Below are positions 3,539 to 10,561 of a stretch of DNA of 33,203 nucleotides, one piece after another (position 1 is the stretch's first letter; each line of letters opens with the position of its first letter). The stretch is from DHVE2 group archaeon. Lineage in GTDB: Archaea > Thermoplasmatota > Thermoplasmata > Thermoplasmatales > Aciduliprofundaceae. The notes below the pieces were generated by a model. The model saw only the letters and a list, made by a program, of their open reading frames with translations, was not told where the DNA came from and did no database searches. The stretch lies in assembly GCA_015521465.1 (NCBI GenBank), contig WAOD01000001.1, positions 1 through 33,203 on the forward strand, written 5' to 3'. Both the position numbers and the translations under genes were made by a program.

Positions 3539-4246
3539 ATGCGAATTAGGACAGGAATACTTGGATTTGACAACATCGTTCAAGGGGGATTCATCCCCAA
3601 CAGGGTTTACATAGTAGCGGGGCCCCCTGGAGCTGGCAAGACCACTTTTGGCGTGCAGTTTTTAATTCAGGGTGCAAAGGAGGGGGAAAGGGGATTATAC
3701 GTATCTCTGACTGAAGATCCTAGGAATATCATAGAGGACATGTCTTCGTATTCATTTAACATAAGAAGGTACACCCTGGCAGGGCTGGTTCTGTTTGTGG
3801 ACATGGGCCCTCTGAGCATACAGTACATGAACGCTATAAAGAACAAAGAAAATGTCAAAAGTCCGTACGTTGATGAGGTATTCAAGAAAATAAGCGCTTT
3901 AGTAAAACTAAAAGGAGTGAAAAGGATAGTCATTGATTCTGTTTTAACCCTCAAGTACGGAAGCAGAACTAAAGAAGACCAGAACAGGGAGATTGCAAGA
4001 TTCTTCAGAAGTCTCAAGGACCTCAAAGCCACCACCTTGATTCTTTCAGAAATGACTGACCTGTCCAATTACAGTCCTGAACATTACATGGCACATGGAG
4101 TGATATTCCTGCATAACTTCTTAAATGGAAACACCATGACGAGGGCACTACAGGTAATTAAAATGAGGGGGACAAAACACGATTGTGACATGCACAAGAT
4201 GGAGATAACCACCGACGGAATTAAAGTGTTTAACACGAAGGTGTGA
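3539..4246 (+). CDS. KaiC-like RecA-superfamily ATPase
   Basis: MRIRTGILGFDNIVQGGFIPNRVYIVAGPPGAGKTTFGVQFLIQGAKEGERGLYVSLTEDP; canonical Walker A GPPGAGKT; ATG 3539 preceded by TATA-like acttaaataat. Confidence 0.88.
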   Translation: MRIRTGILGFDNIVQGGFIPNRVYIVAGPPGAGKTTFGVQFLIQGAKEGERGLYVSLTEDPRNIIEDMSSYSFNIRRYTLAGLVLFVDMGPLSIQYMNAIKNKENVKSPYVDEVFKKISALVKLKGVKRIVIDSVLTLKYGSRTKEDQNREIARFFRSLKDLKATTLILSEMTDLSNYSPEHYMAHGVIFLHNFLNGNTMTRALQVIKMRGTKHDCDMHKMEITTDGIKVFNTKV

Positions 4247-4249
4247 GGT

Positions 4250-4906
4250 ATGAGATGCCCTGTATGTGGTTCAAGAAATGTGAAAAAGTTAAAAACCGGA
4301 AGCTACCAGTGCTTAGATTGCGGATTTATTTTTTATCCTGAAAGAGATGCTATCATAGACCTCAGAGATTTTGTCAGTGCAGATGAACTCACAGAGGAAG
4401 AGAAAGAAGTAATAGGCGAAAAAATAAAAGAAGCAGGGGAAGAGATGACAAAGGAAACATACAGCGAGAATATCAAACACATGTTCAAGAAGGACGTGTC
4501 CATAGAAGACATTGCCACCAGATACAGAGAGAGCGAGTATCTTTACGGTATTTTCATTGATTTTGAAGACAGTGTATCGGGCACGTTACTTTTAATAATT
4601 CCTGAAAGCGAAATATCGGGAATAATAAACAAGTACAAAGGAGGAGTAGTATCTTCGCTGAAATCCATGGCAAGAGATTCCTTTGAGGCTTTCATCAAAA
4701 AGCTTTCATGGGACGCAAAAATAAAGAACATAGATATAGCATACGATACAATGAATGCACTCATGAACTATCTGTCTTCAGAGGTGGATAGAGATAAGAA
4801 CATACTCATGCTTAACTACCAGCTAATTTCCGATGAAGAACCAAAGGGAGAGCTTCTATTTCTGCCCTCAAAAAATACATTGAGATTACTTAGAGGATTC
4901 ATGTAA
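4250..4906 (+). CDS. Zinc-ribbon protein with possible CheC-like C-terminal domain
   Basis: MRCPVCGSRNVKKLKTGSYQCLDCGFIF zinc ribbon; GTLLLIIPESEISGIINKY...MNYLSSEV...GELLFLPSKNTLRLL has a CheC/FliY-like look; 3-nt gap after the KaiC-like gene. Confidence 0.5.
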   Translation: MRCPVCGSRNVKKLKTGSYQCLDCGFIFYPERDAIIDLRDFVSADELTEEEKEVIGEKIKEAGEEMTKETYSENIKHMFKKDVSIEDIATRYRESEYLYGIFIDFEDSVSGTLLLIIPESEISGIINKYKGGVVSSLKSMARDSFEAFIKKLSWDAKIKNIDIAYDTMNALMNYLSSEVDRDKNILMLNYQLISDEEPKGELLFLPSKNTLRLLRGFM

Positions 4907-5031
4907 GTTCTCAAACATTTTTTTAATCTTTTCATCGTATATTATTATCCATGTATCTTTTTTCGAGTTCATGATTAATAATACTTCAAATACCTATTTA
5001 AAGCCCCCGCAATGAAAATCTTAGGAGATTA

Positions 5032-8200: not shown

Positions 8201-8812
8201 ATGGATTGCTCTAGGTGCAATGAGGCTATTATTCGGGACTTGAAGAGGGCTATTAGGAAGGATAGCCTGAAGGTGGAGATTATTAAAATCATCAAAAAAT
8301 ATGAAAAAGGAGATAATGGGGGAAAAGTCCGCTCAAATTATACACTGAATTCTGGAGAATCATATTATATTCAGGAAGAGAAAGCAAGGACAGTATATAC
8401 TGTTTTTCAGCAGGTCCTGGTGAGAAGATACAGGGGGCTCTGCATAACAAGGACCAACCCAGAAAACATGGCATTTAGCAGCGCATTGAAAAACACTGAA
8501 TTTTACTGGCTAACTACCATGAAGAAGGAAAATTCGGTTTCTCCCGGAGACCTTCACAAATTATTAGCAATAATAAAAGACTTTCTGAAGAAAGAGGGGC
8601 GCGGAGCAATTGTAATTGACGGCGTTAATTCATTAATAGTAAATAATGGCTTTAATTCATTTCTAAAATTCATCCAAACTGCAAAAGATGCTGTTAGCGA
8701 AAAACACGGGATACTTTTAATATCGATAAACATGAAAAGCCTTGATGACAGGGAGAGAGCCATGCTACAAAACGAGTTAAAAGAAATATCAATTAAAAAA
8801 ATAAGAGTTTGA
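8201..8812 (+). CDS. DUF835-domain protein
   Basis: GESYYIQEEKARTVYTVFQQVLVRRYRGLCITRTNPENM...GAIVIDGVNSLIVNNGFNSFLKFIQTAKD...ISINMKSLDDRERAMLQNEL matches the DUF835 pattern; TATA-like box ~25 nt before ATG. Confidence 0.75.
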   Translation: MDCSRCNEAIIRDLKRAIRKDSLKVEIIKIIKKYEKGDNGGKVRSNYTLNSGESYYIQEEKARTVYTVFQQVLVRRYRGLCITRTNPENMAFSSALKNTEFYWLTTMKKENSVSPGDLHKLLAIIKDFLKKEGRGAIVIDGVNSLIVNNGFNSFLKFIQTAKDAVSEKHGILLISINMKSLDDRERAMLQNELKEISIKKIRV

Positions 8813-8852
8813 CAACGAAAAATTTAAATCATTAAAAACGATGGTTTTGCTG

Positions 8853-10214
8853 ATGTCTGTCCCCAAAGAGATTTCAAAATTTCTAAACCGCAGCGGAGTG
8901 GTTCTTTTAATAAGAGGGGAGCCAGGTACCGGCAAAACCAAAATGTCCCTTGAATTGATGAAAAACTACAACATGGCCTATGTTGGAACAAAGAGAACGG
9001 TAGAGGAAATTAAAAGAGAGTACCCATGGATAACTGATGAGATGAAGGGGCACATGTTTGCAATAGACGAAAAATACGATTACAGAGAAACAGACAGATT
9101 CGGCTCTGTGTTTTATCTGATTCCAGAAGCAATACGCAAGGTGCTGAACCTCGTTGAAGATGGAAAGATAAAAGGGATAATCATAGATAGCTGGCACGGG
9201 ATAATTAACGAACTGAACATACTCGCAATGGAGGAAAAGGAGAGGGAGAAAATCTACGACTCATCATCATTTTTCCTGAAAATCATAAGGCTATCTGACA
9301 TGGATGTTAATTTCATCGTGGTAAGGGAGGGAAACGAGGACGATAACCTGTCCTATCTGGCAGATGGAGTGGTAACCGCCTGGAAGAATGTAAAAGAGGG
9401 AAGGCTTTACAGGTGGTTCTCAATAGACAAGCTCAGGGGCGTGGAAATAGAAAAAAATGTGTATTTTTTCACATTGAAGGATAACGAGTTCAACTACCTC
9501 TATTCAAGCAGGTTCAAGCACCCCAAAAAGATATTAGGATACAAGTCAAGCTCAGAAATTCCAGGTAGCACTTATTTCGATGATATATTCACCGTGCGCA
9601 GAAGCAACACCGTAGTGTTTGACTTCGGGGAGCATGTTCCTGTACCCTACAAAGTAGCAAGCTTGATGGGGTTCATCGCGAGTTTCTCATATCACGGCTC
9701 CCGAGTCATAATTATACCCCCTAATGGATTTGACATGAGCGATTTGAAGTACAGCATATATCTTTACAAGCTTGAAAGATATTACAAAAACATAACTTAT
9801 CTCTATGGAGAAGGAGACGTAGAAGAATTTGCAAGGCTCGTTGATTTTTCCAATTCAAAAGAGATAGTTAAAGTAATACACGATGAGATACATGAAAACG
9901 TATCCGAATTTGCACCGTTAATAGTAGTGGGATACGACCGCCTTAACAGTTACATGAGCTCACATGATACTATGAAAACTATGTATCGCCTTAAAGACAC
10001 GGTAAAGGAGTTAGGTGGAGTCACGCTAATTGCAGGCAACATTATGGGTGAAGAAAATAAGAAGTTCAGTTCCAGCATCTCAGACATATACGTGAAATTC
10101 AAAAACATAAATGGAGATGTGGTAATGTACGGAATAAAGCCATGGACAAGGGTTCATCATATAGACATAAAATACGAAGAATATCCAAAATTGATTCCGA
10201 AGGTGATAGTATGA
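8853..10214 (+). CDS. Two-domain KaiC-like protein; second domain appears to lack a P-loop
   Basis: First domain VVLLIRGEPGTGKTKMSLELM with IKGIIIDSWHGII; second domain STYFDDIFTVRRSNTVVFDFGEHVPVPYKVASLMGFIASF retains the RecA-like outline without GxxxxGKT; ATG 8841 also possible. Confidence 0.75.
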   Translation: MSVPKEISKFLNRSGVVLLIRGEPGTGKTKMSLELMKNYNMAYVGTKRTVEEIKREYPWITDEMKGHMFAIDEKYDYRETDRFGSVFYLIPEAIRKVLNLVEDGKIKGIIIDSWHGIINELNILAMEEKEREKIYDSSSFFLKIIRLSDMDVNFIVVREGNEDDNLSYLADGVVTAWKNVKEGRLYRWFSIDKLRGVEIEKNVYFFTLKDNEFNYLYSSRFKHPKKILGYKSSSEIPGSTYFDDIFTVRRSNTVVFDFGEHVPVPYKVASLMGFIASFSYHGSRVIIIPPNGFDMSDLKYSIYLYKLERYYKNITYLYGEGDVEEFARLVDFSNSKEIVKVIHDEIHENVSEFAPLIVVGYDRLNSYMSSHDTMKTMYRLKDTVKELGGVTLIAGNIMGEENKKFSSSISDIYVKFKNINGDVVMYGIKPWTRVHHIDIKYEEYPKLIPKVIV

Positions 10215-10561
10215 AAAACATACTGGTTGTAGACGATTCAGAGATGTTCTATCGTCTGCTTAAAAATGCTATTAAAAATGCAAAGGTAGAATGGGCGCAA
10301 AACGGGGAGGAGGCAATAAAAAAGTACTTGCAAATCAAACCGGAACTGGTGCTGCTTGACCTGATATTGCCCGACCTAAGCGGAATAGAGGTCATAGAAA
10401 AGATAAAAGAAGAGGACAAAGACGCAAGGGTTGTCGTGCTTAGCGGCATAGACAACTACAACGTTGCTGAAGATGCAAAAAGAGCAGGGGCAGTTAAATT
10501 CATCTCCAAGAGTGCAGGCATAAAGTACATAATTGAAGAAATAAACAGGGCAATTGACTAA
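10211..10561 (+). CDS. Stand-alone CheY-like response regulator receiver
   Basis: MKNILVVDDSEMFYRLL...PELVLLDLILPDLSGIEVI...VVVLSGID...GAVKFISKSAG; ATGA overlap with the preceding gene. Confidence 0.92.
   Translation: MKNILVVDDSEMFYRLLKNAIKNAKVEWAQNGEEAIKKYLQIKPELVLLDLILPDLSGIEVIEKIKEEDKDARVVVLSGIDNYNVAEDAKRAGAVKFISKSAGIKYIIEEINRAID

Follow-up and report, generated by a model that had tools for sequence, protein, structure and literature searches.

KaiC-like ATPases are said to act as signalling hubs in archaea, a proposal of Makarova, Galperin and Koonin. Here we analysed a stretch of 33,203 nucleotides, referred to as the window, on contig C1 of a metagenome-assembled genome (G000; 1.5 Mb, 108 contigs) belonging to the DHVE2/Aciduliprofundaceae within the Thermoplasmatota, the nearest named relatives of which are DHVE2-group archaea. 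The window contains an island of 7 kb in which KaiC-like ATPase genes, a DUF835 gene and a gene for a stand-alone CheY-type receiver lie together with an archaellin gene carrying FN3 (fibronectin type III) repeats, and which an earlier note on this DNA had interpreted as one candidate module for motility or adhesion signalling. We consider it moderately probable that the island holds two independent signalling units lying side by side in one genus and bridged by a third (unit C), unit A being an archaellum-associated regulatory module and unit B a separate one.

Several described systems resemble parts of unit A. Like KaiCa, the unit A ATPase, ArlH (FlaH) has a KaiC/RecA fold and a P-loop and is encoded with archaellum genes, and its autophosphorylation is reported to control the binding of ArlI (cited in PMC12448462, PMC12488501). 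KaiCa differs from ArlH in having a separate gene, in scoring below the ArlH equivalog cut-off and in forming its own clade; G000 and the more distant genome G104 carry both proteins. KaiC-family ATPases have been reported in or near archaellum and type IV pilus loci, sometimes with a small helical partner (arCOG01171, 01174, 01175; PMC4858521). The main text of this census contains 0 occurrences of CheC and does not describe a combination of KaiC, a zinc-ribbon CheC-like protein, Cpart and an FN3 archaellin. CirA, a motility and shape regulator of Haloferax volcanii, is also KaiC-like and affects archaellum motility, a likeness at the level of the KaiC family, whereas its regulon shares genes with that of CsmR, a regulator of transcription, and no CheC-like partner is described in the accessible part of that study (PMC13286277). 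ZnR218, the second protein of unit A, shares the fold of its residues ~45-218 with the CheC/FliY/FliM/CheX superfamily but differs by an added zinc ribbon, by an ExxN motif that was not found and by having a KaiC ATPase as partner rather than CheD or the flagellar C-ring. Finally, CheF at the ArlCDE switch connects signalling to the archaellum motor from the cytosol, as we propose for unit A (PMC9126983). It works for a CheA-CheY system, however, and contains PH-like domains as well as a tail that binds CheY-P (PMC9126983), whereas no CheW domains were found in Aciduliprofundaceae, and neither Cpart120 nor ZnR218 gave a CheF match in Pfam and PDB searches. KaiC-like ATPases at archaella are already known; the components of unit A and their linkage appear to be a novel version of this association.

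Components of unit A

Genes were called from an open reading frame (ORF) listing combined with Pfam and NCBIfam scans, and all genes named in the earlier note were found where it had placed them. The clustering of KaiC genes that it pointed out is real, with three KaiC-domain genes in the 7 kb of the island compared to 22 matches in the 1.5 Mb of G000, though several further KaiC pairs occur elsewhere in this genome. Unit A comprises two convergent gene pairs:

3539..4246, plus strand: KaiCa, single-domain KaiC-like ATPase (PF06745, 190.6 bits)
4250..4906, plus strand: ZnR218, N-terminal zinc ribbon (CxxC..CxxC) and CheC/FliY/FliM-fold domain, 3 nt after KaiCa
5032..5394, minus strand: Cpart120, small cytosolic protein of 120 amino acids, adjoining the archaellin gene
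5398..7014, minus strand: FN3 archaellin, starting with a class III signal peptide and the archaellin-type helix (PF01917, 70.7 bits)

KaiCa has both Walker motifs intact (A, GPPGAGKTT; B, VIDS). Its score of 41.1 bits against the NCBIfam ArlH equivalog (cut-off 215) places it outside ArlH, and in the phylogenetic tree KaiCa and its archaellum-linked homologues formed their own clade (support 100/100), from which KaiCb, ArlH, KaiC2 and the remaining paralogues of G000 were separate.

A sequence search with ZnR218 matched the zinc ribbon alone, which resembles eL43/TFIIB-type ribbons. The best AlphaFold2 model, in contrast to the other four (pLDDT 54-63; four-sequence alignment), reached a pLDDT of 77 and a pTM of 0.74, and in a Foldseek search of the PDB its top 33 matches were all CheC, CheX, FliY or FliM, the best being CheC (1xkr, E 9e-8, probability 1.00). 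Independently, the ZnR218 profile matched the CheC of G104, which was itself confirmed as CheC. The guess of the earlier note that this zinc-ribbon protein is possibly CheC-like was thus right with respect to the predicted fold. Alignment with the G104 CheC did not reveal the (D/S)xxxExxN phosphatase motif in ZnR218 or its relatives, which show KSMAR, KQLGK or YKFGQ in place of KEVGN. Owing to this absence, a FliM-like binding role appears likelier for ZnR218 than that of a CheY-P phosphatase.

The archaellin is identified as such by its class III signal peptide, its N-terminal helix, a PF01917 score above the cut-off, profile matches to PDB archaellins and a second archaellin match in its C-terminal beta domain (~residues 415-538). 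FN3-type repeats occupy residues ~85-410; they gave a profile match to the FN3 domains of neogenin, and Foldseek matched the AlphaFold2 model, which is of low confidence (mean pLDDT 49), to tandem FN3 proteins. Only the FN3-like repeats, on which the sequence profile agrees, were taken from this model. The FN3 archaellin and its coupled partner, both noted earlier, are therefore present. Over 15 genomes the mean column identity was 77%, with signal peptide and N-terminal helix almost invariant. Since Aciduliprofundaceae carry several other archaellin genes, the FN3 archaellin is less likely to be the main subunit of the filament than a specialized one, probably large and minor. None of the papers accessible to the search contained both of the terms archaellin and fibronectin type III.

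Cpart120 has an invariant core, LGxxVGxxxH...WV, and no PDB relatives. A diverged ArlD/E domain, considered because of a shared YY..GW motif, was rejected (HHalign probability 1.7%), and a mutual relationship of h84 (see below), Cpart120 and ZnR218 was likewise rejected on comparison. A stand-alone ArlD/E gene comes after archaellins of the FN3 type or of other special types at three loci (L164:6465-8956, L166:1-1211, L122:6983-8218); after the FN3 archaellin of Aciduliprofundaceae, Cpart120 occupies this slot.

Conservation within Aciduliprofundaceae

Gene neighbourhoods, the conservation of which the earlier note had proposed as a check, were compared across 18 Aciduliprofundaceae genomes. 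Unit A (KaiCa-ZnR218 convergent with FN3 archaellin-Cpart120) was complete or nearly complete in 14 of them and cut by contig ends in two; it was broken in G006, and no archaellin was found in G010, which is 72% complete. Unit B (KaiC2-CheY, usually convergent with a PAPS-reductase gene) was present across the family wherever visible. While each unit is thus family-wide, both are adjacent solely in genus g1, where they are linked by h84-KaiCb and DUF835 and where the order is retained wherever contigs permit (G000, G001, G002, G003, G004 and G007). KaiC2-CheY, KaiCb and unit A occur at separate places in the genera g2, g3 and g5. Two relatives are available as single contigs (G011, 1,486,778 bp; G013, 1,437,090 bp), and G011 has unit A at ~49-52 kb, unit B at 1,138.5-1,140.2 kb and h84-KaiCb at 1,477 kb, the gap between A and B amounting to 1.09 Mb.

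The whole island as one conserved module was rejected because KaiC2-CheY and KaiCb lie elsewhere in other genera, and as unit B is found apart from unit A there, the receiver has no fixed association with the archaellin. Scattering in related genomes, which according to the earlier note would speak against its proposal, was indeed observed for the receiver, KaiC2 and KaiCb but not for KaiCa, ZnR218 and the archaellin.

Unit A homologues at arl and che loci

Within-family synteny was set aside as main evidence for a functional link within unit A because it is weak against the background of neighbour retention given below, and distant homologues were therefore examined. We searched ~300 Thermoplasmatota genomes with profiles of ZnR218 and Cpart120, and 394 with those of KaiCa and the extended Cpart family. 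Beyond the family, proteins of the KaiCa clade were detected in G052, G092, G104 and G116. The Cpart family was confined to Aciduliprofundaceae and four other genomes (G052, G067, G092 and G104), with an arl context in three of the four; a match in G047 (20 bits, internal stop) was set aside as chance.

The gene order in G052 is ArlJ - KaiCa - Cpart, with the last two genes overlapping and ArlJ, although cut by the contig end, scoring 367 bits against the NCBIfam ArlJ model. G092 carries an archaellin gene divergent from KaiCa-Cpart and, 4 kb beyond, an archaellin gene of the FN3 type with an ArlD/E gene after it. Cpart is the last gene of the arl operon in G104, which begins with archaellins and ArlC/D/E and continues with further genes, ArlH, I and J among them. 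On another contig of the same genome, an FN3-archaellin C-terminus and ArlD/E are followed by cheR and by ZnR-KaiCa-cheW, divergent from cheA, cheD and, at a greater distance, cheC; the KaiCa gene overlaps the ZnR gene and adjoins cheW. All four of these loci lie beside arl or che genes, for which we estimate a chance of roughly 1e-5 (assuming ~25 arl/che genes per genome, 6% per locus), with G067 and G116 as exceptions. The archaellum link of unit A is better supported than the earlier note could know. What stands of the single module is that KaiCa, ZnR218, Cpart120 and the FN3 archaellin occur together family-wide and have distant homologues at arl or che loci in three other families, while KaiC2-CheY and h84-KaiCb are separate units.

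The CheW domain, which is part of both CheW and CheA, gave no match in 12 Aciduliprofundaceae genomes, with control genomes positive, in a search that did not include CheF, CheB and methyl-accepting chemotaxis proteins (MCPs). The family would thus lack CheW and CheA in their usual form, and a CheA-CheW-CheY system was accordingly not recognized in these 12 genomes. Eleven of them nevertheless contain archaellins, and an ArlD/E gene is present in G011.

Proposed role of unit A and alternative explanations

In the working model, KaiCa with its P-loop would be an ATP-driven switch or timer that changes its nucleotide or phosphorylation state, presumably through ATPase and autophosphorylation activity. 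ZnR218, presumably co-transcribed with KaiCa, would pass this state on to the motor/switch or to a receiver, docking as FliM does in flagella. Cpart120, whose homologues in other families are encoded with ArlJ, in the arl operon or with archaellin genes, would provide the link to the archaellum machinery and may dock at ArlJ or at the ArlH/I motor, and the FN3 archaellin, to judge from its architecture, would serve as a large, probably minor filament subunit. In Aciduliprofundaceae, whose archaella occur without CheW domains, unit A would act as the chief source of signals for archaellum assembly or switching, and unit B (DUF835, KaiC2, CheY) would run separately as a unit of the phosphorelay type.

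An integrated island, in which CheY, KaiC2, DUF835, KaiCb, KaiCa and ZnR218 jointly act on the FN3 archaellin, would agree with the location of all genes within 7 kb, with the order kept in genus g1 where contigs allow and with the CheC/FliM fold of ZnR218, a natural receiver-binding fold. We regard it as unlikely, as the units are dispersed in g2, g3 and g5 and more than 1 Mb apart in the closed genome G011, KaiC2-CheY adjoins pilin or type IV pilus genes in G012 and G016, and G010 has KaiC2-CheY but no archaellin that could be found (72% complete). Somewhat less doubtful is an expression checkpoint, in which ZnR218 would contact nucleic acid or the transcription machinery through its zinc ribbon and thereby govern archaellin expression, with KaiCa as the gate: the ribbon matches those of the eL43/TFIIB type, and CirA of H. 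volcanii is a KaiC-like protein that affects motility and has a regulon overlapping that of CsmR (PMC13286277). The bulk of ZnR218, however, is a CheC/FliM fold, and its G104 homologue sits with cheA, cheW, cheD and cheC and not with transcription regulators. Also unlikely, in our view, is that the unit A genes remained neighbours merely through slow rearrangement in a family with small genomes and have no shared role. Pair retention between G000 and G011, which in a small sample reached 55% overall and 50% among convergent pairs, would allow for this, but the same gene families are joined in other arrangements in G052, G092, G104 and thus in other families, and passive retention offers no explanation for this.

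The interpretation of unit A as an archaellum-associated module apart from unit B is itself confronted with a number of opposing points. It draws on gene content, linkage, the predicted fold of ZnR218, the family of KaiCa and the absence of CheW-domain matches, with the search range given above. In a background control with 20 stretches of 20 kb from G011, a small sample centred in part on loci of KaiC, kinases and archaellins, 18 of 33 neighbouring pairs outside the window (55%) were retained between G000 and G011, as were 4 of 8 convergent pairs (50%), so that within the family the convergent layout of unit A exceeds the background in conservation only slightly. G006 has an FN3 archaellin-Cpart pair without adjoining KaiCa-ZnR. 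Outside the family, the clade member of G116 adjoins another KaiC gene and not archaellum genes, and no archaellin match was obtained in G116; no archaellin was found in G052, which is 64% complete; and Cpart of G067 is fused to a V4R-like domain on a short contig with no arl gene visible. Archaellins are present in 185 of the 394 Thermoplasmatota genomes, of which few carry the unit A module. Co-occurrence in a genome is by itself a weak signal, and the module is not needed for archaella in general.

The G067 fusion (L163:2036-2842) has its V4R-like domain at the C-terminus, scoring 27 bits where Pfam requires 31, which hints at Cpart taking a small-molecule signal.

Going beyond the two-unit interpretation, we tentatively suggest that Aciduliprofundaceae might steer their archaella independently of CheA, using a KaiC-type ATPase coupled to a zinc-ribbon protein of the FliM/CheC-like kind and to Cpart120 as adaptor, which would be a second kind of switch input, and that elsewhere in Thermoplasmatota the same KaiC/CheC-like pair might feed classical chemotaxis. 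With respect to archaellum control in archaea without a chemotaxis system, the comparison isolates a small candidate set, in which KaiCa is joined by a zinc-ribbon protein resembling CheC/FliM and by a short adaptor protein. This set recurs at archaellum or chemotaxis loci in several families and is kept in Aciduliprofundaceae, where archaella occur without detectable CheW domains. If the suggestion is true, the signalling-hub proposal for KaiC would gain a concrete partner on the motor side. Two closed single-contig genomes carry the full unit A.

Units B and C

The remaining genes of the island and the gene following it are:

7185..7436, plus strand: h84, helical protein of 84 amino acids, overlapping the KaiCb start (unit C)
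7433..8155, plus strand: KaiCb, single-domain KaiC-like ATPase (PF06745, 149.9 bits; unit C)
8201..8812, plus strand: DUF835 protein of the inactivated-KaiC type (PF05763, 124.1 bits; goes with unit B)
8853..10214, plus strand: KaiC2, GvpD/KaiC-like ATPase domain and DUF835-like C domain (unit B)
10208..10561, plus strand: CheY-type stand-alone receiver (PF00072, 80.1 bits), overlapping the KaiC2 end (unit B)
10558..12306, minus strand: PAPS-reductase/PUA/ferredoxin protein (PF01507, 152.9 bits; PUA, Fer4), convergent with CheY

Judged from the sequence, the island forms five likely transcription units, KaiCa-ZnR218, FN3 archaellin-Cpart120, h84-KaiCb, DUF835 and KaiC2-CheY, each with a TATA-like box ~22-30 nt ahead of the start codon; these boxes were recognized by eye and are a weak signal in AT-rich DNA.

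KaiCb (GPTGSMKST and ILDS as Walker A and Walker B) is, together with KaiCa, one of the two single-domain KaiC-like ATPases described earlier, both of which were confirmed by PF06745 scores and Walker motifs. It formed its own clade (support 100/97) outside the ArlH clade and scored 59.7 bits against the NCBIfam ArlH equivalog (cut-off 215). h84 had no Pfam or PDB relative. The h84-KaiCb pair is also kept in G010 and G011, and the KaiCb orthologues of G008, G010 and G011 are distant from any archaellin.

The DUF835 protein and the CheY-like receiver of the earlier note were both confirmed by their Pfam scores. DUF835 was assigned to unit B because a DUF835 protein also follows KaiC2-CheY in G011. 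KaiC2 had been described as a two-domain KaiC-like protein, which applies to its N domain (GvpD_P-loop 42.9 bits, KaiC 41.1 bits; Walker A GEPGTGKT), whereas a second KaiC domain at the C-terminus found no direct support and weak similarity to DUF835 was seen instead (HHalign, 79%). Its start was moved to the ATG at 8853, since the orthologues begin close to the same xVPxE motif. KaiC2 orthologues are present in 18 of 18 family genomes, and the receiver, in which the Asp pair, the phospho-Asp and the Lys are conserved, adjoins KaiC2 wherever the contig extends, in five genera. Fusions of KaiC-REC and REC-DUF835 are known and fit unit B (PMC5847659). The PAPS-reductase gene neighbours KaiC2-CheY in all family genomes where this is visible, and its product is probably metabolic.

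The statement of the earlier note that no histidine kinase is present holds for the window but only locally. G000 has only two receivers and six HATPase_c matches, all six on other contigs and about three of them histidine-kinase-like by ORF context. Six congeners, as well as G010, have a histidine kinase gene immediately ahead of the PAPS-reductase gene (L066:1-1935, L067:4242-6422, L078:375-2318 and equivalents); the kinase examined beside unit B, that of G002, has the architecture PAS-PAS-GAF-HisKA-HATPase. On this flank the kinase gene is absent from the window and from G007, and a STAND/TPR gene is found there instead. Unit B is probably a phosphorelay-type unit, fed in relatives by the histidine kinase encoded nearby, and the kinase gene beside it would have moved or been lost in the G000 species and in G007.

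The STAND-type ATPase (window:12343-14865) has an N-terminal winged helix and TPR; a 37% homologue in G011 (L118:8318-10852) lies near a stand-alone receiver of 107 amino acids. In G012 and G016, KaiC2-CheY is divergent from a pilin gene (L081:4311-8696, L089:2-343), followed by T2SSE and T2SSF in G012, while the G016 contig ends. These neighbours make a type IV pilus a possible target of the receiver.

Elsewhere in the window, genes for short proteins rich in Gly and Tyr and for a dinitrogenase cofactor-binding protein of the NifX/NifB type, which has a DUF5320 tail (window:2055-3459), precede unit A, as in most family genomes. A protein of 1980 amino acids (window:18238-24180) combines an archaeal pilin N-terminus (Pilin_N) with CARDB and VWA and is a candidate for a very large surface or pilus-associated protein.

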